In this document: positions 22,590-38,452 of the stretch, piece by piece
Numbering within the stretch: the stretch's first letter is position 1
How the letters are laid out: each line of letters starts with the position of its first letter
From: Rhodoferax saidenbachensis
Lineage (GTDB): Bacteria; Pseudomonadota; Gammaproteobacteria; Burkholderiales; Burkholderiaceae_C
DNA: 64,000 nt
Assembly (NCBI RefSeq): GCF_001955715.1
Contig: NZ_CP019239.1
Location: forward strand, 1,178,001-1,242,000
Direction of reading: 5' to 3'
Made by a program: the position numbers and the translations under genes
Notes under the pieces: generated by a model
The model's database searches: none
Told to the model about the DNA's origin: nothing
Seen by the model: the letters and a program-made list of their open reading frames with translations, nothing else

Positions 22590-22773
22590 GTGCCGATTGT
22601 GCCGCAGCCGGCAATTCACGGTTTAAAGCGTAATACCACAAACTTGTATAGACAGCAATACGCCGAAAGTCCCTATACGAACTGCCGTCAGGTGGACTAG
22701 TATTGGTTTCGGCAGTCATTTTTGGTGGCGTTTCCTTGCGTTAAGGATTGAAACGGCGGCAAAATAAGCATTC

Positions 22774-22792
22774 CTGTATATACAAGTACAGG
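22774..22792. promoter_or_regulatory. HutC-type operator before the hut transporter genes
   Basis: TGTATATACA (22775-22784) is a perfect palindrome inside CTGTATATACAAG, followed at once by TACAGG, making a wider inverted pair (CCTGTA...TACAGG). It matches the TGTAnnTACA form of HutC sites and is almost the mirror of the site before hutH. It lies 82 bases before the binding-protein start. A one-mismatch relative, TGTATAGACA, is at 22646-22655 in the same gap. Confidence 0.65.
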
Positions 22793-22873: not shown

Positions 22874-23839
22874 ATGGGTAAATCGGGTTTGAAGATCGCA
22901 TCGTTGCTGGCCGCCAGTCTGGTGGCTGCGGGCACGGCCTCTACGGCTGTAGCGCAAGAAACAAAAATCGTGTTGGGCATGTCCGGTTGGACCGGCTTTG
23001 CACCACTGACCCTGGCCGACAAGGCCGGCATTTTCAAGAAACACGGTCTGGATGTGGAAATCAAGATGATTCCCCAGAAGGACCGCCACCTGGCACTGGC
23101 TTCTGAAGCCATCCAGTGCGCAGCCACCACCGTGGAAACCCACGTGGCCTGGAACGCCAACGGCGTGCCCATCGTGCAGATCTTCCAGATGGACAAGTCC
23201 TACGGCGCAGACGGCATCGCAGTGCGCGGTGACATCAAGACGTTTGCCGACCTCAAGGGCAAGACCATTGGTGTGGACGCCCCCGGCACCGCACCGTACT
23301 TCGGCCTGGCCTGGATGCTCAGCAAGAACGGCATGACGCTCAAAGACGTAAAGACCACTACGCTGTCGCCCCAGGCGTCGGCCCAGGCTTTTGTCGCTGG
23401 TCAGAACGATGCGGCCATGACCTACGAACCCTACCTCTCCACCGTGCGTGACAACCCTGCCTCTGGCAAGATTCTGGCCACCACGCTGGACTACCCCATG
23501 GTGATGGACACCGTGGGTTGCGCTCCCACCTGGCTCAAGGCCAACCCCAAGGCCGCCAAGGCGCTGGCCGACTCCTACTTTGCTGCGCTGGACATGATCA
23601 AGGCTGAGCCCGCCAAGGCCAACGAAATCATGGGCGCTGCGGTCAAGCAATCGGGCGAACAGTTTGCCAAGTCGTCGGCCTACCTGCGCTGGCAAGACAA
23701 GGCAGCCAACCAGAAATTCTTTGCTGGTGAGCTGACCGCCTTCATGAAGGATGCCCAAAAGATCCTGCTGGAAGCTGGCGTGATCCGCAAGGCCCCTGAG
23801 AACCTGGCAGTGACGTTCGATGACAGCTTCATCAAGTAA
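22874..23839 (+). CDS. NitT/TauT-family ABC transporter substrate-binding protein
   Basis: A 321-residue periplasmic protein with a signal peptide of about 25 residues ending TAVAQ. It has the SsuA/NMT1-like fold: MSGWTGFAPLTLADKAGIFKKHG at the start, then IGVDAPGTAPYFGL and NDAAMTYEPYLS. A strong AAAGGGG ribosome-binding site precedes the ATG. Permease and ATPase genes follow with almost no gaps, then hutC and hutH. A HutC-type operator lies upstream, so histidine, urocanate or a related imidazole acid is the most likely ligand. The family alone would also allow sulfonates, nitrate or pyrimidines. Confidence 0.87.
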   Translation: MGKSGLKIASLLAASLVAAGTASTAVAQETKIVLGMSGWTGFAPLTLADKAGIFKKHGLDVEIKMIPQKDRHLALASEAIQCAATTVETHVAWNANGVPIVQIFQMDKSYGADGIAVRGDIKTFADLKGKTIGVDAPGTAPYFGLAWMLSKNGMTLKDVKTTTLSPQASAQAFVAGQNDAAMTYEPYLSTVRDNPASGKILATTLDYPMVMDTVGCAPTWLKANPKAAKALADSYFAALDMIKAEPAKANEIMGAAVKQSGEQFAKSSAYLRWQDKAANQKFFAGELTAFMKDAQKILLEAGVIRKAPENLAVTFDDSFIK

Positions 23840-23843
23840 AGCC

Positions 23844-24677
23844 ATGCAAGGTGCACCCGCCATTTCCACGCCAGCGGCCGGTGCGCCGGTGCGCCGGCGT
23901 GGGCTGGCGCCACTGGAGCCGGTCAGCTTGCGCGCACGCTGGATGCTGGGGCTGGCCTTCTTCGTGGTGTTTGTCGCGGTCTGGTCCTTCTTCACGCTGG
24001 GCGGCTTCGTGTCGCCCACCTTCCTGGCCAGCCCGGTCACGATGGCGCGGGAGGGTTGGCTGCTGTTCACCGAGTACAACTTCATCCACGACATCGGCAT
24101 GACCGTGTGGCGTGTATTGGGCGGCTTTGTGCTGGCCGCCATCGTGGCGGTGCCCCTGGGCATTGCCATGGGCGCGCACAAGGGGGTGGAGGCGTTCCTG
24201 GAGCCCTTCGTCTCTTTCTGCCGTTACCTGCCTGCGTCTGCCTTTATTCCGCTGCTCATTCTGTGGGCCGGTCTGGGTGAATTGCAGAAACTGCTGGTGA
24301 TCTTCATCGGCTCGGTGTTCCAGGTCACGCTGATGGTGGCGGTGACGGTGGGCAGTGCGCGCCGTGATCTGGTGGAGGCGGCCTATACCCTGGGCGCCAA
24401 CAACAGCGGCATCGTCAAACGGGTGCTGATTCCGGGCGCTGCGCCCGAGATCGCCGAAACCCTGCGTCTGGTGCTGGGCTGGGCCTGGACCTATGTGATC
24501 GTGGCGGAGCTGATCGGATCAAGCAGCGGCATTGGCCACATGATCACCGACAGCCAGGCGCTGCTCAACACCGGGCAGATCATCTTCGGCATCATCATCA
24601 TCGGCCTGATCGGGCTGGTGTCTGACTTTGCCTTCAAGGCGCTGAACCGCCGTCTGTTTGTCTGGAGTGCGATATGA
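23844..24677 (+). CDS. NitT/TauT-family ABC transporter permease
   Basis: A 277-residue inner-membrane protein with about six helices and the family's EAA-type loop (VEAAYTLGANNSGIVKRVLIPGAAPEI, about residues 175-201) that docks on the ATPase. A Pro- and Arg-rich N-terminal tail of about 30 residues precedes helix 1. The ATG lies 4 bases after the binding-protein stop. The 3' end overlaps the ATPase start by four bases (ATGA). Partner of the adjacent transporter genes under probable HutC control. Confidence 0.92.
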   Translation: MQGAPAISTPAAGAPVRRRGLAPLEPVSLRARWMLGLAFFVVFVAVWSFFTLGGFVSPTFLASPVTMAREGWLLFTEYNFIHDIGMTVWRVLGGFVLAAIVAVPLGIAMGAHKGVEAFLEPFVSFCRYLPASAFIPLLILWAGLGELQKLLVIFIGSVFQVTLMVAVTVGSARRDLVEAAYTLGANNSGIVKRVLIPGAAPEIAETLRLVLGWAWTYVIVAELIGSSSGIGHMITDSQALLNTGQIIFGIIIIGLIGLVSDFAFKALNRRLFVWSAI

Positions 24678-25456
24678 GCGCCAAGTTGTCCATCCAAGGC
24701 GTATCGCGCGTCTTCACCAGTCCCAAGGGCGCGAAGACACAAGCGCTCACGCCGGTTGATTTTGACGTGCGCGAAAACGACTTCGTCACCATTCTGGGCC
24801 CCTCGGGTTGCGGCAAGTCCACCATGCTGCGCATCGTGGCGGGGCTGGACCAGCCCACCACCGGGCGCGTGCTGCTCGACGGTCAGCCCGTCGACGGCCC
24901 GGGCGCGGACCGTGGCATGGTGTTCCAGAGCTACACGCTGTTCCCCTGGCTCACGATTGCGCAGAACATCCGCTTCGGCCTGCGTGAACGTGGCATGCCC
25001 GAGGCGCAGCAAAAGGAGCGCTGCGACTACTTCATGGCCAAAGTCGGCCTGCGGGGTTTCGAGCACCATTTTCCCAAGCAGCTCTCGGGTGGCATGCAGC
25101 AGCGCACGGCGATTGCCCGTGCGTTGGCGAATGACCCCAAGATATTGCTGCTCGACGAGCCTTTTGGCGCGCTGGACAACCAGACCCGCGTGCTGATGCA
25201 GGAGCTGTTGCTCGGCATCTGGGAGGCCGAGCGCAAGACGGTGCTGTTCGTGACCCACGACATCGACGAAGCCATCTTCATGGCCAATCGGGTTGCGGTG
25301 TTCAGCGCACGGCCTGGGCGTATCAAGACCGAGCTGGAAGTAGACTTGCCGCACCCGCGGCACTACACCATCAAGACTTCGCCCGAGTTCATGCAACTCA
25401 AGGCGCGCTTGACCGAAGAAATTCGGGCCGAGTCCATGGCCGCGGCAGAACACTAA
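24674..25456 (+). CDS. NitT/TauT-family ABC transporter ATP-binding protein
   Basis: A 260-residue ATPase: Walker A GPSGCGKST, Q-loop VFQSYTLFPWL, signature LSGGMQQRTAIARAL, Walker B ILLLDEPFGALD and switch His in FVTHDIDEA, all in order. It energises the permease encoded just upstream, with which its start overlaps by four bases. hutC follows 25 bases later. The three transporter genes precede hutC and the histidine catabolic genes on the same strand. Confidence 0.94.
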   Translation: MSAKLSIQGVSRVFTSPKGAKTQALTPVDFDVRENDFVTILGPSGCGKSTMLRIVAGLDQPTTGRVLLDGQPVDGPGADRGMVFQSYTLFPWLTIAQNIRFGLRERGMPEAQQKERCDYFMAKVGLRGFEHHFPKQLSGGMQQRTAIARALANDPKILLLDEPFGALDNQTRVLMQELLLGIWEAERKTVLFVTHDIDEAIFMANRVAVFSARPGRIKTELEVDLPHPRHYTIKTSPEFMQLKARLTEEIRAESMAAAEH

Positions 25457-25481: not shown

Positions 25482-26270
25482 ATGAATGCCAAGCTGCACG
25501 CCATCACTTCCGCTGCCTCCGCCATCCGGCGGTCGGGGGAGGTGCCGGCCAGCGTGGCGCTGTACCAGCAGATCAAGGACTTCATTGCCAGCCGCATCCA
25601 GGACGGCACTTGGCGGCCCGGCGACAAGCTGCCGTCGGAGAACGACCTGGTGGTGCAGTTTGGCATGTCGCGCATGACGGTGAACCGCGCGCTACGCGAG
25701 CTGGTGGAACAGGGCCGCATACGGCGTGTGGCCGGTGTGGGCAGCTTTGTGGCCGACGACAAACCGCAGGCCAACCTGCTGCAGATCGCCAGCCTGGCCG
25801 AGGACATCCGCCGCCGCGGACATGACTACGCGTGTGACGTGATCGTGGTCGAGCGTACCTCGGCCTCGCTGGAAATCGCCACCGCGCTGGGGCTGACGAC
25901 CGGCGCCTCGGTGTTCCATTCGGTGTGTGTGCATCTGGAAAACGGTGTGCCCATGCAACTGGAAGACCGCTATGTCAGCCCAGCCATGGTGCCGCAGTTC
26001 ATCCAGCAGGACTTCGCCCGCGAACAACCGGCCGACTTTCTGGTGCGCACCGTGCTGTTCGACCAGATGGAGCATGTTGTCGACGCCGTGTTGCCCACGG
26101 CCGAGCAGGCCCGCCTGCTGCAGATGGATGCGCACCAACCCTGCCTGCTGCTCACGCGCCGCACCTGGCAGCGCGATATTCCCATCACCATCGTGCGTTG
26201 CCTGCACCCCGGCATGCGATACCGCCTGGGCAGCCGCTTCCGTACCGACGGCAACGCCCTGTCCAGCTGA
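25482..26270 (+). CDS. hutC: Histidine utilization repressor, GntR/HutC family
   Basis: A 262-residue regulator with a GntR winged helix (VALYQQIKDFIASRIQDGTW, KLPSENDLVVQFGMSRMTVN, about residues 25-95) and a C-terminal UTRA effector domain ending LLTRRTWQRDIPITIVRCLHPG, characteristic of HutC. In other proteobacteria HutC binds urocanate and releases its operators. Two TGTATATACA palindromes in this locus, before the transporter genes and before hutH, are its likely targets, so it should also regulate itself through the upstream operator. Confidence 0.93.
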   Translation: MNAKLHAITSAASAIRRSGEVPASVALYQQIKDFIASRIQDGTWRPGDKLPSENDLVVQFGMSRMTVNRALRELVEQGRIRRVAGVGSFVADDKPQANLLQIASLAEDIRRRGHDYACDVIVVERTSASLEIATALGLTTGASVFHSVCVHLENGVPMQLEDRYVSPAMVPQFIQQDFAREQPADFLVRTVLFDQMEHVVDAVLPTAEQARLLQMDAHQPCLLLTRRTWQRDIPITIVRCLHPGMRYRLGSRFRTDGNALSS

Positions 26271-26306: not shown

Positions 26307-26320
26307 CTTGTATATACAGG
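26307..26320. promoter_or_regulatory. HutC-type operator before hutH
   Basis: CTTGTATATACAGG contains the perfect palindrome TGTATATACA (26309-26318). It ends 8 bases before the hutH ATG, so a bound repressor would also cover the ribosome-binding site (ACAGGATAAAAC). The inverse-oriented equivalent is at 22774. Confidence 0.65.
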
Positions 26321-26327
26321 ATAAAAC

Positions 26328-27887
26328 ATGACAACACCCACTGCATCCACTTTGACGCTGTTGCCCGGCCAGGTGCCATTGGCCCACTGGCGTGCCATCT
26401 ACCGCGGCGCCACGCCCACGCTGGACGCGTCCTGCGCCGCTGCCGTAAAAGCTAGCGCCGAGACCGTGGCGCGCATCGTCGCCAAGGGTGAGCCGGTTTA
26501 CGGCATCAACACCGGCTTCGGCAAGCTCGCCAGCGTGCGTATTCCCGCCGAAGACCTGGAAACCCTGCAACGCAACATCGTGCTGTCGCACGCCGCGGGT
26601 GTGGGTGAGGCAACCCCCTTGCCCATCGCGCGCCTGATGATGGCGTTGAAGCTGGCGAGCTTGGCGCAGGGCGCATCGGGCATTCGCCCCGCAACCTTGG
26701 CCTTGCTCGAAGCCATGTTGGTGCGCGGTGTGATTCCCGTGGTTCCCGGCCAAGGTTCGGTGGGCGCCTCGGGCGATCTGGCGCCGCTGTCCCACATGAC
26801 GGAAGTGATGATCGGTGTAGGCGAAGCCTTCACCCCCACGGGCCGCATGCCCGCCGTAGAAGCGCTGGCCAGCGTGGGCCTCCAACCTGTGGTGCTCGGC
26901 CCCAAGGAAGGCTTGGCCTTGCTCAACGGCACACAGTTTTCCACCGCCAATGCATTGGCCGGTTTGTTCGAGGCGGAGCGTCTGCTGCAGTCGGCCCTGC
27001 TGACCGGCGCGCTGTCCACCGACGCGGCCAAGGGCACGGATGCGCCATTTGACGCACGCATCCACCGCCTGCGCAAACACAAGGGCCAGATGGCCACGGC
27101 CGAAGCATTGCGCCAGTTGCTGGTTGGCAGTGCCATCCGTGCTTCGCACCTGAGCGGCGACGAGCGCGTGCAAGACCCGTATTGCCTGCGCTGCCAGCCG
27201 CAGGTCATGGGCGCATGCCTGGACGTGCTGCACCACGCGGCCGACCTGCTGGAGACCGAAGCCAACGGCGTGTCGGACAACCCGCTGATCTTCCCTGGCG
27301 TCAACGGCCAGCCCGACGAGTCCTTGTCCGGTGGCAACTTCCACGCCGAGCCGGTGGCCTTTGCGGCCGACATGATTGCCATGGCGATCTGCGAAATCGG
27401 TTCGCTGTCCGAGCGCCGCATTGCCATGCTGGTGGACCCTGCACTGTCGGGACTGCCGGCATTTCTGACCCCCAAGCCGGGCCTGAACTCGGGATTCATG
27501 ATTCCGCAGGTCACGGCCGCTGCGCTGGTGTCGGAAAACAAGCAACGCGCGTATCCTGCCAGCGTGGACTCCATCCCCACTTCGGCGAACCAGGAAGACC
27601 ATGTGTCCATGGCCGCCCACGGTGCGCGCCGCCTGATGCCCATGGCCGAGAACGCCATGGCCGTGATTGCCATTGAATGGCTGGCTGCGGCCCAGGGCTG
27701 CCATTTCCACGCGCCACTGCAATCCAGCGCTCCGCTGCAGCAAGTGGTGCAACTGTTGCGCACCCAAGTGCCGCACCTGGAGGATGACCGCCACATCCAG
27801 CCCGATATGCAGGCCGCGATTGCCATGGTGCGCAGTGGCGCCCTGGTAGCGGCTAGCCAAAGCGTTGCGCTGCCCAGCGTCGCTTGA
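26328..27887 (+). CDS. hutH: Histidine ammonia-lyase
   Basis: A 519-residue cytoplasmic enzyme, the usual length. The tripeptide that cyclises to the MIO electrophile is Ala147-Ser148-Gly149 in [21 protein letters not shown] (active-site Tyr), [11 protein letters not shown] and [18 protein letters not shown] are also present. It deaminates L-histidine to urocanate. The operator for HutC overlaps its translation start region. hutU follows after a family B repeat. First enzyme of the complete pathway encoded here. Confidence 0.97.
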
Positions 27888-28047: not shown

Positions 28048-29745
28048 ATGACCACCAACACCGATCCCCGCATTGACCCCACCCGAGTGATCCGCGCCCC
28101 GCGTGGCACCGCGCTGACCTGCAAGAGCTGGCTGACCGAAGCCGCGTACCGCATGATCCAGAACAACCTGGACCCCGAAGTCGCCGAGAACCCGCAGGCC
28201 CTGGTGGTCTACGGCGGCATTGGCCGCGCCGCGCGCGACTGGGCCTGTTTTGACCAGATCCTGGCGTCGCTCAAAGACCTGAATGACGACGAATCGCTGC
28301 TGGTGCAATCTGGCAAGCCCGTGGGCGTGTTCAAGACCCACGCCAACGCGCCGCGCGTGCTGATCGCCAATTCCAACCTGGTGCCCAAGTGGGCCAACTG
28401 GGAACACTTCAATGAGCTGGACCGCAAGGGCCTGTTCATGTACGGCCAGATGACGGCGGGTAGCTGGATCTACATCGGCAGCCAGGGCATCGTGCAAGGC
28501 ACGTTTGAGACTTTTGTGGAGGCTGGCCGCCAGCACTACAACAACAGCCTCGCGGGCAAGTGGATTCTGACCGCCGGTCTGGGCGGCATGGGCGGCGCAC
28601 AGCCGTTGGCCGCCACGCTGGCCGGAGCCGTCTCGCTGAACATCGAGTGCCAGCAGAGCAGCATCGACTTCCGTCTGCGCACGCGTTATGTGGACAAGCA
28701 GGCGCGTGACATCGACCACGCGCTCGAACTCATCGCGCAACACTGCGCCGCGAAAGAAGCCGTCTCTATCGCCCTGCTGGGCAACGCGGCCGACATCCTG
28801 CCCGAGCTGGTGAAGCGCGCCAAGGCCGGCGCCATCAAGCCCGACCTGGTGACCGACCAGACCTCGGCGCACGATTTGATCAACGGCTATCTGCCCACCG
28901 GCTGGACCGTGGCCCAGTGGAAGACCGCGCAGCGCGACCCCGCACAACACAAACGCCTGACCGATGAAGCTGCCCAAAGCTGCGCGGTGCACGTGCAGGC
29001 CATGCTGGACTTCCAGGCCATGGGCATCCCCACGGTGGATTACGGCAACAACATCCGCCAGGTGGCGTTTGACGTGGGCGTGAAGAACGCGTTCGACTTC
29101 CCCGGCTTTGTGCCCGCCTACATCCGCCCGCTGTTCTGCGAAGGCAAGGGCCCGTTCCGCTGGGTGGCACTCTCTGGCGACCCGGAAGATATCTACAAGA
29201 CCGACGCCAAGATCAAGGAACTGTTCCCCGAGAACAAACACACGCACCGCTGGCTCGACATGGCGCGCGAGCGCATCAGCTTCCAGGGCCTGCCCGCACG
29301 CATCTGCTGGCTCGGTCTGGGTGAGCGCCACATCGCCGGTCTGGCCTTCAATGAGATGGTGAAAAACGGCGAACTCAAAGCGCCGATCGTCATCGGCCGC
29401 GACCACCTGGACACCGGCTCGGTGGCTAGCCCGAACCGCGAAACCGAAGCCATGAAGGACGGCACCGATGCTGTGTCCGACTGGCCGCTGCTCAACGCGC
29501 TGCTCAACACTGCTGGCGGCGCCACCTGGGTCAGCCTGCACCATGGCGGTGGCGTGGGCATGGGCTACTCGCAGCACTCCGGCATGGTCATCGTGGCCGA
29601 TGGTACCGATGCGGCCGCCGAGCGCCTGGCGCGTGTGCTGGTCAACGACAGCGGCTCGGGCGTCATGCGCCACGCTGATGCCGGTTACGACATCGCTGTC
29701 GCTACCGCGAAGAAGCAGGGCCTGAAACTGCCGATGATCAAGTGA
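28048..29745 (+). CDS. hutU: Urocanate hydratase
   Basis: A 565-residue cytoplasmic NAD-dependent lyase, the expected size. Motifs include the NAD-binding glycine loop in [29 protein letters not shown] and the catalytic Cys at about residue 420 in [11 protein letters not shown]. It converts urocanate to imidazolone propionate. GAAGGAGCCCACC is a good ribosome-binding site. Family B repeats lie on both sides. Confidence 0.97.
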
Positions 29746-29858: not shown

Positions 29859-30431
29859 ATGCTGCACCGCTTTGACATTGCCACCTTGCCTGCCACACCG
29901 TGGAAAAACGGCGGTGGCAGCACACGTGAAATCGTGTGTCGCCCCGAGGGCGCGGGCATGGATGGCTTCGACTGGCGCGTCAGCATTGCCACCATCGCAC
30001 AGCCCGGGCCGTTCTCGGCCTTTCCGGGAGTGGACCGTGTGATCATGTTATTGGACGGCGATGGCGTGTTGTTGCAATCGGCCAGCGGCATCAACCATAG
30101 GCTGGGTGAAGCCTATGCGCCATTTGCCTTCTCCGGCGATGTGGCGCTGGACTGCACACTCTTGGGCGGTGCGTCTACCGACTTCAACGTGATGACGCGG
30201 CGCGGCGCCGTACGCGCGGAGGTGCAGGTGCTGCGGTCTGCTGCAGACCTGATGGCCTCAGCGCACGGTCTGCTATTGGCCCTGCAAGGGGATTGGCAGT
30301 TGCAGGGCGCGCAAGCTACCCTGTCTTGCACTGCAGGGCAGGGACTGTGGTGGGACGGTGCGCAACACGGCTGGCAAGCCACGCCGCAGCGCAGTGATGC
30401 GGCCCTGGTGTGGGTACGTCTGGACACGTAG
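29859..30431 (+). CDS. hutD: HutD family protein
   Basis: A 190-residue cupin-like protein: [20 protein letters not shown] at residues 9-28, then [19 protein letters not shown] and [11 protein letters not shown]. HutD is regularly found in hut operons and in Pseudomonas is thought to limit hut expression or bind a pathway intermediate; it has no demonstrated enzymatic step. It starts 32 bases after a family B repeat. Its stop is 13 bases before the chosen hutI ATG. Confidence 0.88.
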
Positions 30432-30439
30432 GAGCCTGA

Positions 30440-30509
30440 AATTTATGAAAAAAGTGCCTGTAGCCCCCATGCAGTCTGCGCAAGCAGCTACGCATTTGAT
30501 AGCAAATTT
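30440..30509 (+). repeat. Short interspersed repeat (family A) at the hutI start
   Basis: AGTGCCTGTAGCCCCCATGC, then GCGCAAGCAGCTAC and TTGATAGCAAATTT. Both plausible hutI start codons (30445 and 30469) lie inside it, so the repeat provides the first residues of HutI. Confidence 0.75.
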
Positions 30510-31725
30510 ACCTAGCGCCAACGGTGTCTGGACGCATCTGCACCCCATGCCCGGTGCACTGGCCGATGGCGACATGCCTGCGGGTGAAGTCAGCCTGGTG
30601 GTGGAGCAGGGCCTCATTCGCTGGATCGGTGCAGGCGATGCCGTACCCGCCGCCTATGCTGCCTTGCCACGCTTTGACGGTGGCGGTGCGCTGCTCACGC
30701 CCGGCCTGGTCGACTGCCACACCCACTTGGTCTACGGCGGCCAGCGCGCCAATGAGTTTGCGATGCGGCTGGCCGATGCCAGCTACGAAGAGGTGGCCAA
30801 AGCAGGCGGAGGCATTGTCTCCAGCGTGCGCGCCACGCGTGAGGACGATGAAGACACGCTGTTCGCATCGGCCGCCCGTCGGCTCGAAGAGCTGCTGGCC
30901 GAGGGCGTCTGCGCGATAGAGATCAAATCCGGCTACGGCCTGGCACTCGAACACGAACGCAAGCAGTTGCGCGTGGCACGCCGCCTGGGCGAGGCCTATG
31001 GCGTCACCGTGCGCACCACCTTTCTAGGCGCGCATGCATTGCCGCCCGAATACGCAGGCCGCAGCCAGGACTACATCGATGTGGTCTGCAACGAGATGCT
31101 GCCAGCACTCGCCGCCGAGGGTCTGGTGGATGCAGTTGATGTGTTCTGCGAACGCATAGGCTTCTCGCTGGCCGAGACCGAACAAGTTTTCAAAGCGGCG
31201 AAGGCTTTGGGTTTGCCAGTCAAGTTGCATGCCGAACAACTCTCGGACATGGGCGGTTCGGCGCTGGCCGCACGTTATGGCGCGCTGTCGTGCGACCACA
31301 TCGAACACTTGAGCGCGGAGGGCATTGCCACCATGAAGGCCGCGGGCACGGTGGCCGTGTTGCTGCCCGGCGCCTACTACACGCTGCGCGACACCCACCT
31401 GCCACCGATCCAGGCGCTGCGCGATGCCGGTGTGCCGATGGCGGTGAGCACTGACCACAACCCTGGCACCTCACCGGCCTTGAGTTTGCTGCTGATGGCG
31501 AACATGGCTTGCACGTTGTTCCGTCTGACGGTGCCGGAGGCGCTGGTCGGTATCACGCGCAACGCGGCGTTGGCGTTGGGGTTGCAGGACACCCATGGCA
31601 CGATTGGTGTTGGGCGGCCGGCCAACTTTGTGTTGTGGGGTGTGCAGGAGGCTTCGGAGTTGGCTTATTGGTTTGGGCAGCGGCCGGTGAGGACGGTGGT
31701 GCGGCAGGGTAGGGTGGCGGTGTGA
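30445..31725 (+). CDS. hutI: Imidazolonepropionase
   Basis: A 426-residue amidohydrolase. [16 protein letters not shown] carries the two metal histidines, followed by [25 protein letters not shown] and [11 protein letters not shown] with the metal Asp. It hydrolyses imidazolone propionate to N-formimino-L-glutamate. The start is uncertain: ATG 30445 has GGAG ten bases upstream, ATG 30469 has none. Either start lies in a family A repeat, so the first 14-22 residues are repeat-encoded and probably dispensable; the conserved part begins near NGVWTHL. Confidence 0.95.
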
Positions 31726-31750
31726 CTGCCTCTCTTCTTTTGAGGGGTGC

Positions 31751-32323
31751 CTGCCGGCGGGGCAGGTCGGGTTGTGCGCCCGACAGATGGTTTGGCCGGG
31801 TCTCGCCCCGGCGGGCGACTCACTTTCTCTTGCTTCGCCAAGAGAAAGTAAGCAAAGAGAAGGCGACCCTACTGTCTGCGACCCTCCGCTGCGCTGCGGG
31901 CAACCTGCGGTGCTCGGGGTCGGGGGGGTCTGGCTCGAACTCGCCCTGCGGGCTCAAACAATCGCCAGCCCTCATCCGCCGCCCCCTGCGCTCCTCGGCG
32001 TATACAGAAGGGATTGGGGGAATACACGCCATCGCTGCGCTCGGCGCGTCCGCGCGCAGGCGCGGACGGGATGTTGGTAGTTGCTACCCGGTGGTTACTG
32101 TCACCGCCGTAATGAGGAGGCGAGTAGCGCAGGTTTGGGCGGATCAGGGCTGGCGATTGTTTGAGGCGATAGCCGAGTTCGAGCCAGACCCCGCCCAAAC
32201 CGAGCAACGCAGCGTGCCCGTAGCGAAGCGCAGGGCCGACGAATCCGGCTCGCCTTTCTTTGCTTACTTTCTTTGGCGAAGCAAAGAAAGTGAGTGCGCT
32301 GTCGGGCGCATATCCCGACATGC
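31751..32323. repeat. Family C: 0.57-kb near-palindromic element, copy 1
   Basis: The outer ends are inverted copies (GTTGTGCGCCCGACAG against CTGTCGGGCGCATATCCCGA). Next inward comes CTTCGCCAAGAGAAAGTAAG against CTTACTTTCTTTGGCGAAGC, then TCTGGCTCGAACTCGCCC against GAGTTCGAGCCAGACC, then AATCGCCAGCCCT against AGGGCTGGCGATT. The unpaired centre is about 32010-32105. A second copy in the same orientation is at 50659-51215. It separates hutI from hutF in an otherwise tight operon. Short open frames on both strands exist in both copies but change with indels, so I do not call genes. Confidence 0.85.
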
Positions 32324-32344
32324 CACGCAACCAAAACAATCACC

Positions 32345-33739
32345 ATGAATAAAACACTATTCGCCCAGGACGCTTTGTTACCCACCGGCTGGGCCAAAAA
32401 CGTCCTGCTGCAATGGAACGCGCAGGGTCAACTCACCCAAGTGCAAACCAACAGCACCCCCGACAGCACGGCGCAAAAGGCAATAGGGCCAATCATCCCC
32501 GGCACTCCCAACCTCCACTCCCACGCCTTCCAACGCGCCTTCGGCGGCCTCACCGAATACCGCGGTCAAAGCCTGGATGGAGGGCAAGACAGCTTCTGGA
32601 GCTGGCGCACGCTGATGTATCGCTTCGCGCAGCGCATCACGCCCGCACAGCTGGAGGCCATCGCCACCTGGCTCTACATCGAGATGCTGGAGGCGGGTTA
32701 CACCTCTGTCTGCGAATTCCACTACGTGCACCACGACCAAAGCGGCCAGCCTTATGCCGACGACGCGACGCTGGCCCAGTGCCTGCTGCGCGCCGCGCAG
32801 AAGACCGGCATGGGTCTGACGCTGCTGCCCGTGCTGTACCAGACCAGCGGTTTTGGTGCCACGCCACCGTCTGAGGGCCAGCGCCGATTTATCCGCAGCA
32901 CCGACAACATGCTGCGTTTGCTGGAGCGCTTGAAGCCTCTGTGCGAAGCGCAGGGCGCGCGCCTGGGCCTGGCGCCGCATTCGCTGCGTGCCGTACCGCC
33001 CGATGGACTGCGCGATGCGCTCGCGGGCTTGAATACCATCGACGCCACTGCCCCGGTGCACATCCACATCGCTGAGCAGACCGGCGAGGTCGATGCCTGC
33101 GTGGCCTGGAGCGGCCAACGTCCGGTGGAATGGTTGCTGAACCATGCCGAGGTCAACGCACGCTGGTGCCTGGTACACGCCACGCACATGAACGAGGCTG
33201 AGTACCAGCGCGCCGCACAAAGCGGCGCCGTGGCCGGCATTTGCCCCAGCACGGAGGCCAATTTGGGCGATGGTATTTTTGACATGCCACGCTGGCTCTC
33301 AAACGGTGGCGCCTGGGGTGTGGGCTCGGACAGCCACGCCACGGTGAATGCCGCCGAAGAACTGATGCTGCTCGAATACGGCCAGCGCCTGCACCTGCGC
33401 CAGCGCAATGTGCTGGCCACTCCCCAGCAGTCGCAGGTCGCCACTGCCATGACTTTGCAGGTTTTGCAGGGTGGTGCGCAAGCCGCAGGCCGCACCATTG
33501 CTGGCCTGACCGTGGGCCAGCAGGCGGACTTTGTGGCGCTCGACGCCCAGCACATTGCACTCGCAGGTTTGTCCGCGCCCGAGATGCTATCTGCCCATGT
33601 GTTTGCTAGCCACCGCACCTCCGCATTGGACGGCGTCTGGGTTGCGGGCCAGCAGCAGGTACAGGCCGGTCGCCATGCATTGCACGACGAGGCCGCACAG
33701 GCGTTTGTGCAGGCGCGTCGGCGTCTGCTGGTTGAATAA
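32345..33739 (+). CDS. hutF: Formimidoylglutamate deiminase
   Basis: A 464-residue amidohydrolase. It has PGTPNLHSHAFQRAFGG with metal histidines, CEFHYVHHD, IHIAEQTGEVDACVAWSGQR and GSDSHATVNAAEEL with the metal Asp. It converts N-formimino-L-glutamate to N-formyl-L-glutamate plus ammonia. Its presence with HutG, and absence of a formiminoglutamase, marks the five-step pathway. The ATG at 32345 gives the normal N-terminus (MNKTLFAQDALLP). A start 51 bases upstream would lie in the family C element. Confidence 0.95.
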   Translation: MNKTLFAQDALLPTGWAKNVLLQWNAQGQLTQVQTNSTPDSTAQKAIGPIIPGTPNLHSHAFQRAFGGLTEYRGQSLDGGQDSFWSWRTLMYRFAQRITPAQLEAIATWLYIEMLEAGYTSVCEFHYVHHDQSGQPYADDATLAQCLLRAAQKTGMGLTLLPVLYQTSGFGATPPSEGQRRFIRSTDNMLRLLERLKPLCEAQGARLGLAPHSLRAVPPDGLRDALAGLNTIDATAPVHIHIAEQTGEVDACVAWSGQRPVEWLLNHAEVNARWCLVHATHMNEAEYQRAAQSGAVAGICPSTEANLGDGIFDMPRWLSNGGAWGVGSDSHATVNAAEELMLLEYGQRLHLRQRNVLATPQQSQVATAMTLQVLQGGAQAAGRTIAGLTVGQQADFVALDAQHIALAGLSAPEMLSAHVFASHRTSALDGVWVAGQQQVQAGRHALHDEAAQAFVQARRRLLVE

Positions 33740-33749
33740 CGTGAAAAAT

Positions 33750-33799
33750 CCGTTCGCCCTGAGCCCGTCGAAGGGCTTCGACAGGCTCAGCCCGAACGG
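33750..33799. repeat. Family B inverted repeat between hutF and hutG
   Basis: CCGTTCGCCCTGAGCCCGTC and GACAGGCTCAGCCCGAACGG face each other with only a short loop (GAAGGGCTTC), giving a compact, near-perfect hairpin. It begins 11 bases after the hutF stop. Confidence 0.9.
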
Positions 33800-33823
33800 T
33801 GTTGATATGAAAGTTCGAAAACC

Positions 33824-34639
33824 ATGACCATCACCACCGAAGCCCCTTTCATCTTTCATCAGGGCACCCGTCCCCTGCTGATTTCCATGCCGCACGTGGG
33901 TACGCATGTGCCGCCAGCGATTGCCACGCGCCTGACGCCCGAAGGCCGCGAGGTGCATGACACCGACTGGCATCTGGGCCGCCTCTACGACTTCGCCAAG
34001 GCAATGGGCGCTTCCATCCTCATGGCCACGCATTCGCGCTATGTGGTGGACCTGAACCGTCCGCCCGATGGCGCCAGCCTCTACCCGGGCCAGAGCGTCA
34101 CAGGCCTGTGCCCGGTCGATACTTTCAATGACACGCCGTTGTATGCCGATGGCAATGGGCCTGATGAGGCCGAGATCGCCGCGCGGCGCGAGGCGGTCTG
34201 GCGGCCGTACCATGACCAGCTCGCTGCCGAGTTGGCACGTATCAAGGCCCGGCATGGCATCGCGATGCTGTGGGACGCACATTCCATCCGTTCGGTCGTT
34301 CCGCGCTTCTTCGAGGGCAAGCTGCCCGATTTCAACCTCGGCACCGCCGATGGCGCGAGTTGCGACCTGGTGCTGGCGCAGCAACTGCTGGCGATTGCCC
34401 AGGCCTCGCTGGGCTACACCGCCGTGCTCAATGGCCGCTTCAAGGGCGGTCACATCACCCGCCACTACGGTCAACCCGCACACAACGTCCATGCGGTGCA
34501 ATTGGAGATGACGCAATGCAGCTATATGCAGGAGCACATGCCGTTCGACTACCTGCCCGACGTAGCCGAGCGTGTGCAGCCTACGCTGCAAGCGCTGCTG
34601 CAGACAGTGCTTGCCTTTGCTGAGCGCCGAGACCATTGA
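33824..34639 (+). CDS. hutG: N-formylglutamate deformylase
   Basis: A 271-residue zinc hydrolase of the N-formylglutamate amidohydrolase family. It has ISMPHVGTHVP, HDTDWHLGRLYDFAKAMGAS, THSRYVVDLNRP, LWDAHSIRSVVPRFF and QLEMTQCSYM. It releases formate and L-glutamate from N-formyl-L-glutamate, the last step of the five-step histidine pathway. The FAD-linked dehydrogenase gene starts two bases after its stop, implying coupled translation. Confidence 0.95.
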   Translation: MTITTEAPFIFHQGTRPLLISMPHVGTHVPPAIATRLTPEGREVHDTDWHLGRLYDFAKAMGASILMATHSRYVVDLNRPPDGASLYPGQSVTGLCPVDTFNDTPLYADGNGPDEAEIAARREAVWRPYHDQLAAELARIKARHGIAMLWDAHSIRSVVPRFFEGKLPDFNLGTADGASCDLVLAQQLLAIAQASLGYTAVLNGRFKGGHITRHYGQPAHNVHAVQLEMTQCSYMQEHMPFDYLPDVAERVQPTLQALLQTVLAFAERRDH

Positions 34640-34640
34640 G

Positions 34641-36071
34641 ATGACGACGCCAAGCTTGATCGAAGAACTGGTTGCGGCATTGGGTGCTGATGCGGTGCGC
34701 AGCGGTGACGCCATTGACGCGCGTTACCAGGCTGACTGGAGTGGTACAGCACCCGTACTTCCTTTGGCTCTGCTGCGGCCCGCCAGCACCGAACAGGTGG
34801 CAGCGGCCTTGCGCATCTGCCACACGCACCGGGTGCCCGTGGTGCCACAAGGCGGTATGACCGGCCTGGCCGGCGGCGCTGTTCCGCAGCTTGACGGTGT
34901 GGCTTTGTCGCTGGAGCGTATGAACGCTATCGAGCGGGTCGATGCCGCAGCGGCCACCATCACGGTGCAAGCCGGTGCCACATTGCAGGCCGTGCAGGAA
35001 GCTGCATTGGCGCAGGGCTTGCTGTTTGGCGTGGACCTGGGCGCGCGCGGCACCTGCCAGATTGGCGGCAACCTGGCCACCAATGCCGGTGGCAATGGCG
35101 TAGTGCAGTACGGCATGGCGCGCGAGCAGGTGCTGGGGCTGGAGGTGGTGCTGGCCGATGGCACGGTGTTGCCCATGCTGCGCCCCATGCTCAAGAACAA
35201 CACGGGTTACGACCTCAAGCACTGGTTCATCGGCTCCGAAGGTACGCTGGGCATCATCACGCGCGCCGTGCTGGTACTGCGTCCGGCGCCGCGCGCACGC
35301 GTCAGTACGCTGGTGGCCTTGCCGGACTACGCCAGTGCCATCCGTTTGCTGCGCCGCTTGCAGGCCCGCTTTCCCGGGGCGCTGGCGGCGTTTGAGCTCA
35401 TGTGGGACGACTTCTTCAGCACCTCGCTGCGCTGGAGCCAGATGGCGTCGCCGCTGTCGCAGGCCTATCCGTTCCAGGTGCTGGCCGAAGTCACTGGACA
35501 CGTGGAAGCGGATCTGGCCGAAGCGCTGCAAAACACGCTGGGCGAGGCCATGGAAGACGGCAGCGTACTGGATGCCGTGGTGGCCCAGTCGCAGGCCCAG
35601 GCGCGCGCGCTTTGGCGCATTCGCGAAGCCACGGCGGAGTTCCCTACGCACCTGGCGCCCATCAACTTTGACATCAGCCTGCCGCTAGACCAGATCGACG
35701 CCTTTGCAGAAGAGTGCGTGCAGGCGCTGACTGCACGCTGGCCGACGCAACGCAGTTTTCGCTTTGGCCATCTGGGTGACGGCAATCTGCACCTGACCAC
35801 CGATGCGCGCTCGCTTGCCGGCGGTATCTCGCTGGCTGAGGCGGAGCATGCGGTGGAAGAGATCGTCTACGGCCTGCTGGCGCAGCGCGGCGGCAGTGTC
35901 TCGGCCGAGCACGGCATCGGCCTGCACAAAAAGCCTTACCTGCATGTAAGCCGCACACCTGCCGAACTGGCCGCCATGCGCGCCATCAAGCAGGCGCTCG
36001 ATCCTTTGAATCTGCTCAACCCGGGCAAGGTGTTTGACCTCCATCCTTTTGCTACGAAAGCGACTCCATGA
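34641..36071 (+). CDS. FAD-linked 2-hydroxyacid dehydrogenase (GlcD/D-2-hydroxyglutarate dehydrogenase-like)
   Basis: A 476-residue flavoprotein. An FAD_binding_4 domain spans about residues 40-215 (VPQGGMTGLAGGAVPQ; QIGGNLATNAGGNGV; LVLGxE-like LGLEVVLADGTVLP) and an FAD-oxidase C-terminal domain follows (RFGHLGDGNLHLTT; GGSVSAEHGIGLHKKP). Members oxidise D-2-hydroxyacids such as D-lactate, glycolate or D-2-hydroxyglutarate to 2-oxoacids. Being directly joined to hutG (2 bases) and to an aminotransferase (4-base overlap) suggests a role beside histidine breakdown, for example imidazole-lactate oxidation or disposal of 2-hydroxyglutarate. The start at 34641 avoids overlap with hutG. Confidence 0.87.
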   Translation: MTTPSLIEELVAALGADAVRSGDAIDARYQADWSGTAPVLPLALLRPASTEQVAAALRICHTHRVPVVPQGGMTGLAGGAVPQLDGVALSLERMNAIERVDAAAATITVQAGATLQAVQEAALAQGLLFGVDLGARGTCQIGGNLATNAGGNGVVQYGMAREQVLGLEVVLADGTVLPMLRPMLKNNTGYDLKHWFIGSEGTLGIITRAVLVLRPAPRARVSTLVALPDYASAIRLLRRLQARFPGALAAFELMWDDFFSTSLRWSQMASPLSQAYPFQVLAEVTGHVEADLAEALQNTLGEAMEDGSVLDAVVAQSQAQARALWRIREATAEFPTHLAPINFDISLPLDQIDAFAEECVQALTARWPTQRSFRFGHLGDGNLHLTTDARSLAGGISLAEAEHAVEEIVYGLLAQRGGSVSAEHGIGLHKKPYLHVSRTPAELAAMRAIKQALDPLNLLNPGKVFDLHPFATKATP

Positions 36072-37219
36072 CTGTTGCCACCCTCACCGCAAGCGCTGAA
36101 CTGCTGACCCGTCTTGCCCGCCCCGAAGTGCGTGATTTGCCGGCCTACAACGCCGGCTTGTCTTCCGAGGTCGTGCGCCAGCGTTATGGTGTCAGCCATG
36201 TAGCGCGCCTGGCCAGCAACGAAAACCCGCTCGGCCCCAGCCCGGCTGTGGGCCGGGCGCTGGCGCAGCTCGCGCAGACCATCGGCCTGTACCCCGACGC
36301 CAATTGCCGCGCCCTGCGCGCTGCCATCGCCGCACGCACTGGCGCAAAGCCGGAGCAGGTGGTGGTAGGCAATGGTTCGGAGAACTTGCTGGAAGTGTTG
36401 TGTCAGGCTTTTCTGGAGCCGGGCGACCGTGTGGTCACGTTGCTGCCCTCCTTTGGTCTGCACGAAATTTACCCTCGCATGATGGGTGCCAAGGTGCAAA
36501 TGTTGCCGGTCACACCTGCGCTGGAGTTCGATGTGGATGCCTGGTGCGCTGCATTGACCGCAGGGCCAGCGCCTAAGTTGGCCATGCTCAGCAACCCGTC
36601 CAACCCGGTTGGCTGCATGCTGGACGCAGCGGCATTTCGCCGCATTGTGCAGGCGACGCCACAGGAAACCCTGCTGGTGATCGACGAAGCCTATTACGAA
36701 TACGCGTTACGCACGCCCGGCTTCCCGGATGCGCTGGCGGAGCTTCGCGCGCAAAACCGCCCGTGGATCGTTCTGCGTACCTTCTCCAAAGCCTGGGGTC
36801 TGGCTGGTTTGCGTGTGGGTTATGGCATTGCCTCGGATGACAAACTGGTGCAGATGCTGGACCGCGTACGCACGCCGTTCAATGTGAATCTGGCAGCACA
36901 GACAGCAGCACTGGCCGCATGGAACGATGTTGCGTACATGGAAAAATGCGTAAGTGACACCGTGGCGCAGCGCCAGTGGCTGGCCACGCAATTGCACGCC
37001 ATGGGCGTGCGCATGGCGCCGTCAGCCACCAACTTCCTGTTTGTCGACCTGCAGCGCCCCAATGGCCCGGTGGCCGAGGCGTTGTTGCAACGCGGCGTTG
37101 TCGTTAAGCCGTGGAAGGAAGTGGGCTATGAGAACTTTATCCGCGTTTCCATTGGCAGCGTGCAAGACAACGCGCTGTTTCTGCAGGCCTTTGCAGACGC
37201 GATGCGCAACCCTGTTTAA
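36068..37219 (+). CDS. HisC-like PLP-dependent aminotransferase
   Basis: A 383-residue fold-type-I aminotransferase closest to histidinol-phosphate aminotransferase. Visible are LASNENPLGPSPAV, VGNGSENLLEVL, LSNPSNPVGCML, DEAYYEYA and the PLP lysine in RTFSKAWGLAGLRVGYG. It overlaps the FAD-dehydrogenase gene by four bases (ATGA), so it belongs to the hut transcript rather than a his biosynthetic operon. It could interconvert histidine and imidazole pyruvate, or serve as a second HisC. HisC-type enzymes also accept aromatic amino acids. Confidence 0.87.
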   Translation: MTVATLTASAELLTRLARPEVRDLPAYNAGLSSEVVRQRYGVSHVARLASNENPLGPSPAVGRALAQLAQTIGLYPDANCRALRAAIAARTGAKPEQVVVGNGSENLLEVLCQAFLEPGDRVVTLLPSFGLHEIYPRMMGAKVQMLPVTPALEFDVDAWCAALTAGPAPKLAMLSNPSNPVGCMLDAAAFRRIVQATPQETLLVIDEAYYEYALRTPGFPDALAELRAQNRPWIVLRTFSKAWGLAGLRVGYGIASDDKLVQMLDRVRTPFNVNLAAQTAALAAWNDVAYMEKCVSDTVAQRQWLATQLHAMGVRMAPSATNFLFVDLQRPNGPVAEALLQRGVVVKPWKEVGYENFIRVSIGSVQDNALFLQAFADAMRNPV

Positions 37220-37236
37220 GGTTGTGCTGAATAAGC

Positions 37237-37340
37237 CCGTTCGCGTTGAGCTTGGCCTGTCCTGAGCTTGGCGAAGGGCGAAACGCAGTCCTTACAAATC
37301 AAGGGCTTGCTAAGAGCTTCGACAAGCTCAGCCCGAACGG
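37237..37340. repeat. Family B repeat at the end of the hut operon
   Basis: CCGTTCGCGTTGAGCTTGGC leads through a duplicated CTGAGCTTGGCGAAGGGCGA and CAGTCCTTACAAATCAAGGG to CTTCGACAAGCTCAGCCCGA. It shares its middle with the copy at 27905-27985. It lies between the aminotransferase and the convergent thioesterase gene and may help end both transcripts. Confidence 0.8.
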
Positions 37341-37350
37341 AGGCATTACC

Positions 37351-37896
37351 TTAAGACGCCTTCAATTCAAACACCAGGCAGGTGGTGGTGGCGTGCGCGT
37401 ACAGCGTGCCGTCCGGTCCGACGATGCGGGCTTCTGCGGTGGCCAACTGGCGGCCGCAATGGATCACGGTGCCGATGGCACGCACCCTGGGTGCCTTGGC
37501 CGGGTTGATAGCCTTGACCAAATTCACGCCCAGCTCCGCCGTGGTGTACCCGCGGCCCACCGGCATCATGGTGTGCACCGCGCAACCCAGGGCTGAGTCG
37601 AGCAGCGTGGCGTACCAGCCGCCGTGGATGCCACCCATGGGGTTCAGGTGCGTTGGACCGGGTGCGCCCTGGAACACAGCACGGCCTTCACTGACCTCGA
37701 TCAACTGAAAGTCCAGCGTCTTGGCGATGGGCGGGTAGGGCAGTTCGCCGCGCAGCATGGCCTGCATCATTTCCAGTCCGGTTTTGCCTGCCACCTGGTC
37801 GGGACGGGACACACCGGCGCCCGCTCCGGCGTTCAGGCGGTTCGTGATTTCCTGCTCTTGGGCGATCCAGGTTTCTAGTACGGATACGTTAGACAT
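37351..37896 (-). CDS. PaaI-type hotdog thioesterase
   Basis: A 181-residue protein with the hotdog core at about residues 55-175: LDFQLIEVSEGRAVFQGAPGPTHLNPMGGIHGGWYATLLDSALG (the HGGxxxxLxD active-site pattern) and TTAELGVNLVKAI. It is expected to hydrolyse acyl- or phenylacetyl-CoA thioesters. An N-terminal helical extension of about 45 residues precedes the core. The start at 37896 is preferred because a longer frame crosses the palindromic regulatory region. It diverges from the marR-type gene, which may control it. Confidence 0.88.
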   Translation of the reverse strand: MSNVSVLETWIAQEQEITNRLNAGAGAGVSRPDQVAGKTGLEMMQAMLRGELPYPPIAKTLDFQLIEVSEGRAVFQGAPGPTHLNPMGGIHGGWYATLLDSALGCAVHTMMPVGRGYTTAELGVNLVKAINPAKAPRVRAIGTVIHCGRQLATAEARIVGPDGTLYAHATTTCLVFELKAS

Positions 37897-37932
37897 TGCT
37901 GTGTTCCTTTCAGGGGGATTTAATACTATAGT

Positions 37933-37959
37933 TGCATATGCATCAATTGTAGCTACAAT
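37933..37959. promoter_or_regulatory. Two palindromes in the thioesterase/marR divergent gap
   Basis: TGCATATGCA (37933-37942) and ATTGTAGCTACAAT (37946-37959) are both perfect inverted repeats, placed between the thioesterase start (37896) and the marR start (37967). The 14-bp palindrome is a typical size for a MarR dimer and ends 7 bases before the marR ATG, suggesting autorepression. Binding is inferred. Confidence 0.6.
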
Positions 37960-37966
37960 CATCTGC

Positions 37967-38452
37967 ATGAAAACCGAAGTCAAGCCCGACATTGCAAATT
38001 TCCACCCGGACAAGCCGCAGGGCTGTACCAATCTGAAACTGCGCCAGCTCATGCGGCGTGTTGCGCAGCACTACGACGTGGAGCTGGCCAAGACCGGCCT
38101 GAAGACCACGCAGTATTCGCTGCTGTCCCATGTGGTGAAGCTTGGGCCGATTCGTGCCGTGGATCTGGCGGGTGTGATGCGCATGAGCACCTCCACCCTG
38201 TCGCGCAACCTGCAGCCGTTGGCGGCGATGGGCGTGATCGAAATCCTGCCCGGCGCCGATGCGCGCAGTCGCCTGATCAGTGCGACCGAAGCCGGCCAGC
38301 ACAAGCGCACCGAAGCGCAGCGCAAATGGCGCATCGCGCAAGAAGGCATCAACCAGACATTGGGCGCGCAGCGCGTGCTGGCCCTGCATGCGCTGATAGA
38401 CGAATCCCTTGAACTGTTGTCCCCCGCGGACGGAGAAAACGACGATGTCTGA
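37967..38452 (+). CDS. MarR family transcriptional regulator
   Basis: A 161-residue protein with a MarR winged helix: KLRQLMRRVAQHYD, LKTTQYSLLSHVVKLGPIRA and LAGVMRMSTSTLSRNLQPLAA with the recognition helix, followed by the wing (GADARSRLISATEAG). Its stop overlaps the MFS gene start by 8 bases, and MATE follows, so it heads an efflux operon. Palindromes immediately upstream fit autorepression. The ligand is unknown. Confidence 0.92.
   Translation: MKTEVKPDIANFHPDKPQGCTNLKLRQLMRRVAQHYDVELAKTGLKTTQYSLLSHVVKLGPIRAVDLAGVMRMSTSTLSRNLQPLAAMGVIEILPGADARSRLISATEAGQHKRTEAQRKWRIAQEGINQTLGAQRVLALHALIDESLELLSPADGENDDV

Follow-up and report, generated by a model that had tools for sequence, protein, structure and literature searches.

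A putative hydroxyacid-to-histidine extension of the Hut operon in Rhodoferax saidenbachensis

We analyzed a 64,000-nucleotide stretch of the Rhodoferax saidenbachensis genome (contig NZ_CP019239.1, positions 1,178,001 to 1,242,000 of the forward strand; hereafter the window), with emphasis on two genes that close its histidine utilization (hut) cluster, namely FADox, which encodes a putative FAD-linked 2-hydroxyacid dehydrogenase, and AT, which encodes a HisC-like aminotransferase. Judging from sequence comparisons, the two genes probably constitute a dedicated catabolic extension of the Hut operon that would convert a hydroxyacid to histidine. The arguments for this reading are the linkage of both genes to hut genes across genomes, a change in the substrate pocket of FADox, and the placement of each of the two proteins in a clade of its own. 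The source genome consists of a single 4.26-Mb contig and the comparisons include its own paralogs.

The hut cluster of the window

The features of the locus are as follows, the two genes in question being given first.

34641..36071, + strand: FADox, 476 amino acids; predicted FAD-linked D-2-hydroxyacid dehydrogenase, proposed D-imidazolyl-lactate dehydrogenase (PF01565 and PF02913; pocket comparison)
36068..37219, + strand: AT, 383 amino acids; HisC-like aminotransferase, proposed histidine:2-oxoglutarate aminotransferase (EC 2.6.1.38) that would work towards histidine (PF00155)
33824..34639, + strand: hutG, N-formylglutamate deformylase (TIGR02017 above cut-off)
32348..33739, + strand: hutF, formimidoylglutamate deiminase (NF006684 and TIGR02022 above cut-off)
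30445..31725, + strand: hutI, imidazolonepropionase, start inferred (TIGR01224 above cut-off)
29859..30431, + strand: hutD-like gene of the Ves/HutD family (match to NF008488, Ves, below its cut-off)
28048..29745, + strand: hutU, urocanate hydratase (TIGR01228 above cut-off)
26328..27887, + strand: hutH, histidine ammonia-lyase (TIGR01225 above cut-off)
25482..26270, + strand: hutC, repressor (TIGR02018 above cut-off)
23820..25456, + strand: ABC transporter permease and ATPase genes of the hut cluster (named by eye from the sequence; homologs precede hutC in related hut clusters)
26307..26320, + strand: HutC-operator-like palindrome just before hutH (1 mismatch to the assumed consensus)
22773..22786, + strand: HutC-operator-like palindrome upstream of the ABC transporter genes (1 mismatch to the assumed consensus)

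All genes of the cluster lie on the + strand, in the order ABC transporter genes, hutC, hutH, hutU, hutD-like gene, hutI, a 572-base inverted-repeat element, hutF, hutG, FADox and AT. The hutG stop codon (TGA, 34637-34639) and the FADox start codon (ATG, at 34641) are separated by a single base; the 2-base gap given in the original prediction is the difference between the coordinates, whereas the 4-base overlap that it reported between FADox and AT is confirmed (ATGA, formed by the FADox TGA at 36069-36071 and the AT ATG at 36068-36070). Beyond the 3' end of AT there is a gap with a repeat, followed by an open reading frame (ORF) on the opposite strand. When positions 31600-38100 were scanned, 2 promoter-like sites were found compared to 1.2 in shuffled sequences, and 9 terminator-like sites compared to 6.1. 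The window contains 5 matches to the HutC-type palindrome with at most 3 mismatches, where 0.61 are expected; the consensus used in this and the other operator scans is one which we take to be that of HutC. FADox and AT may be co-regulated by HutC.

The name HutD for the gene at 29859..30431 is one that we presume to apply; in record CP099603 the gene at the same place before hutI, likened to it by position only, is annotated as "HutD family protein". The inverted-repeat element (31757-32328) is imperfect and splits the operon between hutI and hutF, and similar copies occur at roughly 18 genomic sites (40 of 59 candidates were scored, and 46 matches, in both orientations, were listed). The block of hutG, FADox and AT is bracketed by two copies of a short repeat, at 33771-33799 and 37312-37340, which are 93% alike.

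Association with hut genes across genomes

We searched 399 genomes of the family, taking E<=1e-85 as the threshold for AT orthologs and E<=1e-145 for FADox orthologs, and scored linkage to hut from 1.5-kb flanks, with wider regions added for some AT loci. The named loci derive from a scan of named genomes that retained the 80 best out of at least 573 relatives, so that its counts lean towards close relatives. AT orthologs are present in 24 of the 399 genomes and lie in a hut cluster in 23 of them; 18 of these assignments come from the 1.5-kb flanks and 5 more from the wider regions (L060, L061, L066, L218 and L219). At one of the 18 loci (L215) the flanks show hut-type ABC genes and the wider region (L164) shows the whole cluster. 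FADox orthologs were detected in 27 of the 399 genomes, and in 23 of these a hut structural gene is no more than 1.5 kb away. These counts rule out chance proximity to hut, and both genes are members of the hut operon by tight co-directional linkage kept across genomes. A close FADox adjoins AT in 18 of the 24 AT genomes and AT adjoins FADox in 17 of the 27 FADox genomes; the two genes are thus a frequent but not obligate pair. One FADox among the 18, that of G003 (L074), reads in two frames, as does the gene in a Polaromonas P2-4 record (L086), which could reflect either decay or sequencing error.

Several gene orders are seen, namely hutG-FADox-AT, hutI-FADox-AT-hutF-hutG, hutI-FADox-hutF-hutG, FADox-AT-hutG, hutI-AT-hutF-hutG and hutG-AT, which indicates that the association has outlived several rearrangements. 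Delftia acidovorans NBRC 14950 (L090; presumably the type strain) and Comamonas testosteroni JL40 (L088; a species which we take to be the former Pseudomonas testosteroni) both have the order hutI-FADox-AT. Among 200 family genomes hutG occurs in 110 and AT in 12, and all 12 AT-bearing genomes have hutG on the same contig, at a distance of at most 1.6 kb in 11 and of 9 kb in one. In a sample of 369 genomes from the whole class, AT of at least 50% identity was found, apart from that of the window, only in G128 and G562, where it is linked to hut genes in both. The distribution of both genes is patchy.

Some loci depart from the common arrangements. The only AT ortholog outside hut (G725, 50% identity; locus L220) lies beside a FADox relative (42% identity, different pocket) and next to ABC transporter genes like those of the islands described below, and its neighbors look by eye like a Rieske oxygenase and its reductase. 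L072, L092 and L235 contain ABC genes, hutD, hutF, hutG and FADox, and no hutH, hutU or hutI was found over the stretch read; the cluster of L092 is headed by an IclR-type regulator. In L126, a Kordiimonadales bin, the hut cluster is followed by a thiamine-enzyme-like gene, a FADox relative of 49-50% identity with a different pocket, and an lldD-like gene (names by eye). C. testosteroni has a major facilitator superfamily gene between AT and hutF, whose best NCBIfam match, an L-lactate transporter, is below cut-off (182 of 320 bits).

Another setting for FADox is provided by 26 Paraburkholderia-type loci (from Paraburkholderia, Burkholderia, Caballeronia, Pandoraea and Trinickia), all of which have an amino-acid-type ABC transporter and a HutC homolog near FADox. 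AT is found in only 7 of these islands and a hutH with an identity of 42% or more in 5. A 2-oxoglutarate- and Fe(II)-dependent (2OG-Fe(II)) oxygenase, to which no role is assigned, stands beside FADox in 25. In L097, L098, L102, L108 and similar loci the oxygenase gene (DIOX_N/2OG-FeII_Oxy) is divergent from the amino-acid ABC transporter and HutC homologs are present; some islands, e.g., L102, contain a second gene that is HutH-like (about 40% identity). In Vreelandella boliviensis and G562 the genes hutH, FADox, ABC transporter, AT and HutC stand in a row (hutH of V. boliviensis, at L118:7118-8697, is called as two ORFs of 453 and 81 amino acids). FADox and AT together with a HutC homolog, an amino-acid-type ABC transporter and a copy of hutH, as in V. 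boliviensis, G562 and some Paraburkholderia, Caballeronia and Pandoraea, are what one would expect if histidine is the product. The 26 loci and V. boliviensis contain 32 matches to the HutC-type palindrome with at most 2 mismatches, compared to 2.7 in shuffled sequences; one 2-mismatch variant lies between the transporter and the oxygenase gene in 16 loci, and there is no match in 8 of the 27, which are close relatives and not independent cases.

The oxygenase found beside FADox in the islands would fit a substrate that is a modified hydroxyacid derived from histidine, for example an N-methylated one, trimmed first by the oxygenases, and the Rieske-oxygenase-like gene near the G725 pair points in the same direction. 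However, neither the window nor any of the Comamonadaceae rows in the FADox alignment showed such a 2OG oxygenase, and we consider a modified substrate very unlikely.

Pocket residues and clades of FADox and AT

FADox belongs to the families FAD_binding_4 (PF01565) and FAD-oxidase_C (PF02913), and the solved chains nearest to it are 3pm9 and human D-2-hydroxyglutarate dehydrogenase (D2HGDH; 6lpn). In the human enzyme the C1-carboxylate is bound by R386 and the metal by H434, H441 and E475, with H476 as the base, and the C5-carboxylate is held by T390, K401, Y432 and N443, a K401 mutant being inactive (PMC7801405). The FADox of the window retains the metal, base and C1-carboxylate set (R328, H377, H384, E423 and H424), and all four positions that hold the C5-carboxylate are replaced, namely by A332, N342, F375 and T386 (T390A, K401N, Y432F and N443T in human numbering).

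The FADox alignment comprises 100 rows, of which 59 are FADox of at least 55% identity (that of the window included and one exact duplicate locus uncounted) and 41 are more distant; L074 and L086, where the gene is in two frames, and L162, L163 and L164, which have no close FADox, were left out. The five retained residues are kept in 59 of 59 FADox and in the other 41 rows. All 59 have Asn at the K401 position, Phe at Y432 and Thr or Ser at N443, and 57 have Ala at T390 (L062 has Thr and L118 has Gly). The full altered set is found in none of the 41 distant rows, which include a D2HGDH-like paralog from the same genome with Pro, Lys, Tyr and Asn at the T390, K401, Y432 and N443 positions. In G562, where FADox (54% identity) is a neighbor of hutH, AT and HutC, the four positions are occupied by Gly, Asn, Phe and Thr. 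In L124, L130 and L151 (Sinorhizobium/Ensifer relatives) the Asn and Phe of the pocket are kept, with Ala or Gly at the Thr position; the FADox relatives of L124 and L130 adjoin another ABC transporter, without hut genes.

In the tree of these sequences the 59 FADox form one group (Shimodaira-Hasegawa-like approximate likelihood ratio test, SH-aLRT, 99), of which 31 are located near hut enzyme genes (a few near hutH only), 21 in modules with a HutC homolog and 7 in neither setting, compared to one (L126) near hut genes among the 41 outside rows. There is some redundancy among the rows (L067 is identical to L091, and L063 nearly identical to L080), and both this tree and that of AT are quick searches with SH-aLRT as the only support, in which the placement of the long branches L118, L072, L073, L150 and the HisC of the source genome is unsure. 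FADox does not reach the cut-offs of the glycolate oxidase subunit GlcD (260.3 of 567.9 bits for TIGR00387 and 176.3 of 897 bits for NF008408), and the genome has a better GlcD candidate, with 733.5 of 897 bits for the latter. A structural model of FADox was used for the fold only (predicted local distance difference test, pLDDT, 76.8; residues 422-430 are among the stretches below 50). Work on mouse LDHD indicates that specificity in this family is set by the side-chain subsite and that L isomers are not used (PMC10589216).

From the kept C1-carboxylate, metal and base residues, the lost holders of the C5-carboxylate and the LDHD data FADox is expected to act as a D-2-hydroxyacid dehydrogenase on a substrate whose side chain carries no carboxylate. 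The context of the gene in hut points to imidazole as that side chain; D-lactate, D-phenyl-lactate and D-indolyl-lactate are kept open as substrates. On the basis of the pocket we reject FADox as a D-2-hydroxyglutarate dehydrogenase; the genome has the D2HGDH-like paralog with Lys, Tyr and Asn. Thus, among the specificities that the original prediction had regarded as fatal to it, D-2-hydroxyglutarate is argued against, whereas D-lactate is still compatible. The imidazolyl-lactate:NADP oxidoreductase, presumably EC 1.1.1.111, is expected to depend on NAD(P), and FADox by family (PF01565, FAD-oxidase fold) does not. It is on this basis ruled out as the NADP-linked enzyme of 1969 that is discussed below.

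AT scores above the NCBIfam cut-offs for both NF003496 and TIGR01141 (for the latter 302.7 bits, cut-off 276.55). The source genome has a separate HisC, which is 30% identical to AT and overlaps hisB in the his operon, and a HisC of the biosynthetic type is held by 23 of the 24 AT-bearing genomes (G750 has none at the threshold used). AT is therefore not the only HisC of its genome; had it been, this would have met the other stated ground for rejecting the proposed role. In the AT tree, the 32 ATs encoded near hut genes or a HutC homolog cluster in a single group (SH-aLRT 96), apart from 27 further HisC-like proteins of the class, which were chosen as best matches and not individually for a place in a his operon; matches with less than 85% coverage or internal stops, identical copies, the AT of G725 and most ATs first found in the 399-genome search were left out. 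The columns that separate AT from the 27 HisC-like proteins include G130, L131, H132, S178, V181 and K347. G130, L131 and K347 align to Glu111, Leu112 and Arg322 of the Mycobacterium tuberculosis aromatic transaminase (ArAT; 4r2n, the nearest solved chain by sequence), which rearrange upon substrate binding (PMC4703992). In a structural model of AT (pLDDT 85.4) the fold match to HisC proteins is about equal to that to 4r2n, which leaves the substrate undecided.

It could be supposed that AT is no more than a spare HisC, and that FADox is a common D-lactate or glycolate dehydrogenase which happened to land behind hutG, as the NCBI family names and the compatibility of the pocket with D-lactate would allow. 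However, the association is repeated in several gene orders, another HisC is present in nearly all AT genomes, AT and FADox fall into clades of their own, and FADox scores under the GlcD cut-off, all of which makes such an origin extremely unlikely. AT is a strong candidate for the histidine transaminase EC 2.6.1.38, because D. acidovorans and C. testosteroni, the species of two early titles on the degradation of imidazolyl-lactate (1969 and 1973), carry the pair in hut.

A possible imidazolyl-lactate route and its relation to known systems

In the proposed route FADox would oxidize D-imidazolyl-lactate to imidazolyl-pyruvate and pass the electrons from its FAD to an acceptor, presumably in the respiratory chain; AT would use L-glutamate to convert imidazolyl-pyruvate to L-histidine; and HutH, HutU, HutI, HutF and HutG would carry histidine on to glutamate, ammonia and formate, a degradation that is established chemistry. 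Because Hut gives glutamate back, the carrier of the amino group would be regenerated, and carbon would on balance leave the route as 2-oxoglutarate. The role put forward originally, i.e., oxidation of a 2-hydroxyacid to the 2-oxoacid, transamination to histidine and entry into Hut, appears to fit the comparative evidence best, although we narrow it to the D isomer since the family is D-specific where it has been studied. For the most specific version we see about an even chance, namely that FADox is a FAD-dependent D-imidazolyl-lactate dehydrogenase and AT the gene for EC 2.6.1.38, both serving Hut-linked assimilation of D-imidazolyl-lactate, and that in Paraburkholderia relatives the system has become a free-standing island which has a HutC homolog and a transporter of its own and, in some cases, also AT and hutH. 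The assignment of AT as a histidine transaminase is the firmer half; that of FADox is based on gene context and the pocket, and has to be reconciled with the NADP-linked activity and the L substrate described earlier for the same group of species.

Several observations weigh against this reading. The survey of hut operons suggested along with the original prediction bore out the association with hut and also turned up the genes apart, AT having no adjoining FADox in 5 of the 23 hut clusters (from genomes that are absent from the FADox list) and FADox no adjoining AT in 10 of 27 genomes. Neither gene was found in 4 other genomes of the same genus at the thresholds used. Four FADox orthologs (G194, G105, G053 and G686) are located outside hut, with no hut gene in the 19-kb stretches read around them, and have the same pocket, so that the pocket is not unique to hut. 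In the islands AT is scarce and the unassigned oxygenase is nearly constant. NCBI names the family of AT (NF003496, TIGR01141) histidinol-phosphate transaminase, and K347 is present in the biosynthetic HisC of the same genome too and is therefore not decisive. In human D2HGDH the T390 residue also contacts the C1-carboxylate (PMC7801405). By its title, the study of Coote and Hassall (1969) deals with an NADP-linked oxidoreductase, whereas FADox is a flavoprotein by family, and the title of Coote and Hassall (1973), as cited in PMC3953581, PMC9157411 and PMC5487837, names degradation of imidazolyl-L-lactate by Pseudomonas testosteroni, whereas relatives of FADox are D-specific where studied. 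The simplest, if hypothetical, reconciliation would be two dehydrogenases, one for each isomer.

The ATs that have no FADox beside them would also fit a reverse reaction, in which AT converts histidine to imidazolyl-pyruvate as a side exit or for nitrogen salvage and FADox acts on another 2-hydroxyacid. Transamination is reversible. However, the flavin dehydrogenase family runs towards the 2-oxoacid, so that FADox would be expected to refill the pool and not to drain it, a close FADox adjoins most ATs, and hut itself already removes histidine; we regard the reverse direction as distinctly unlikely.

A broader specificity deserves more weight. In G194 (L063) and in a locus of Curvibacter lanceolatus (L080) that is almost identical to it, a FADox with 72% identity and the same pocket overlaps by 4 bases a transaminase gene, whose product in L063 is classed by NCBIfam as an aromatic amino acid transaminase. 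An Lrp-type regulator in divergent orientation is present too (L063:7872-10507 and L080), as in a possible operon for conversion of D-aryl-lactates to aromatic amino acids. The overlap indicates that the pairing of hydroxyacid and amino acid enzymes recurs with another transaminase. This locus is the strongest support for the view that FADox is a general dehydrogenase of D-aryl-lactates (phenyl-, indolyl- and imidazolyl-lactate) and AT a broad aromatic transaminase, hut being one home of several and imidazolyl-lactate one substrate of several. Mouse LDHD takes several D-2-hydroxyacids, including a phenyl one (PMC10589216), and the functions of aromatic and HisC transaminases reportedly overlap (PMC4703992). 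Set against this are the concentration of both genes in hut clusters (23 of 27 FADox and 23 of 24 AT) and the hutH and HutC homologs in some islands, and we judge a general aryl-lactate role to be rather unlikely.

If the dedicated extension to histidine is correct, a two-gene route would explain the consumption of imidazole-lactate by soil and water bacteria, a sequence would be given to the histidine transaminase reported in related bacteria half a century ago, the naming of a family as histidinol-phosphate transaminase by NCBI would be corrected, and the D-2-hydroxyacid dehydrogenases would gain a substrate along with a clear pocket rule. In the open-licence literature, searched by title or start of abstract, we found no paper showing the FADox and AT pair with hut, and no report of a FAD-dependent D-imidazolyl-lactate dehydrogenase was found in the open-licence literature searched. 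Histidine transaminase EC 2.6.1.38 is called known in D. acidovorans with citation of Coote and Hassall (1969), and the authors of a paper on orphan enzymes (2014), in the exchange with reviewers, reject the single gene put forward for this activity since it is the HisC of a his operon (PMC4084501). Imidazolyl-pyruvate supplied in a labeling study becomes histidine in expression based on Escherichia coli (PMC6096522), and a 2025 study of the urinary tract counts both D- and L-imidazole lactate among the metabolites of microbial origin (PMC12583827).

The closest known system is that of Coote and Hassall in P. acidovorans (Delftia) and P. testosteroni (Comamonas), for which no gene is named in the literature read, the 1969 and 1973 papers being known by their titles. 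It shares with our proposal, by title, the imidazolyl-lactate, an oxidoreductase and a histidine-2-oxoglutarate aminotransferase, and both species carry the pair in hut; it differs in its NADP-linked oxidoreductase and its L substrate, compared to the FAD-type family of FADox, which is D-specific where studied. Human D2HGDH and 3pm9 of Rhodopseudomonas palustris have the same fold as FADox, and the human enzyme has the metal, base and C1-carboxylate residues in common with it but differs at the four C5-carboxylate positions. Mouse LDHD, a general D-2-hydroxyacid dehydrogenase, resembles FADox in its subsite A residues and in a side-chain subsite without a charged residue, but is only 30-31% identical, and its W351 position is Ala in FADox (an equivalence derived from R347+4). 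HisC is like AT in its fold and in passing the TIGR01141 cut-off, and unlike it in that AT is found in hut rather than his, forms its own clade and differs from the 27 HisC-like proteins at the six columns given above. The M. tuberculosis aromatic transaminase Rv3772 (4r2n) is the best sequence match to AT among solved chains and shares with it the Leu at the Leu112 position, but the identity in the fold alignment is 34% and the Arg322 position is occupied by Lys347 in AT.

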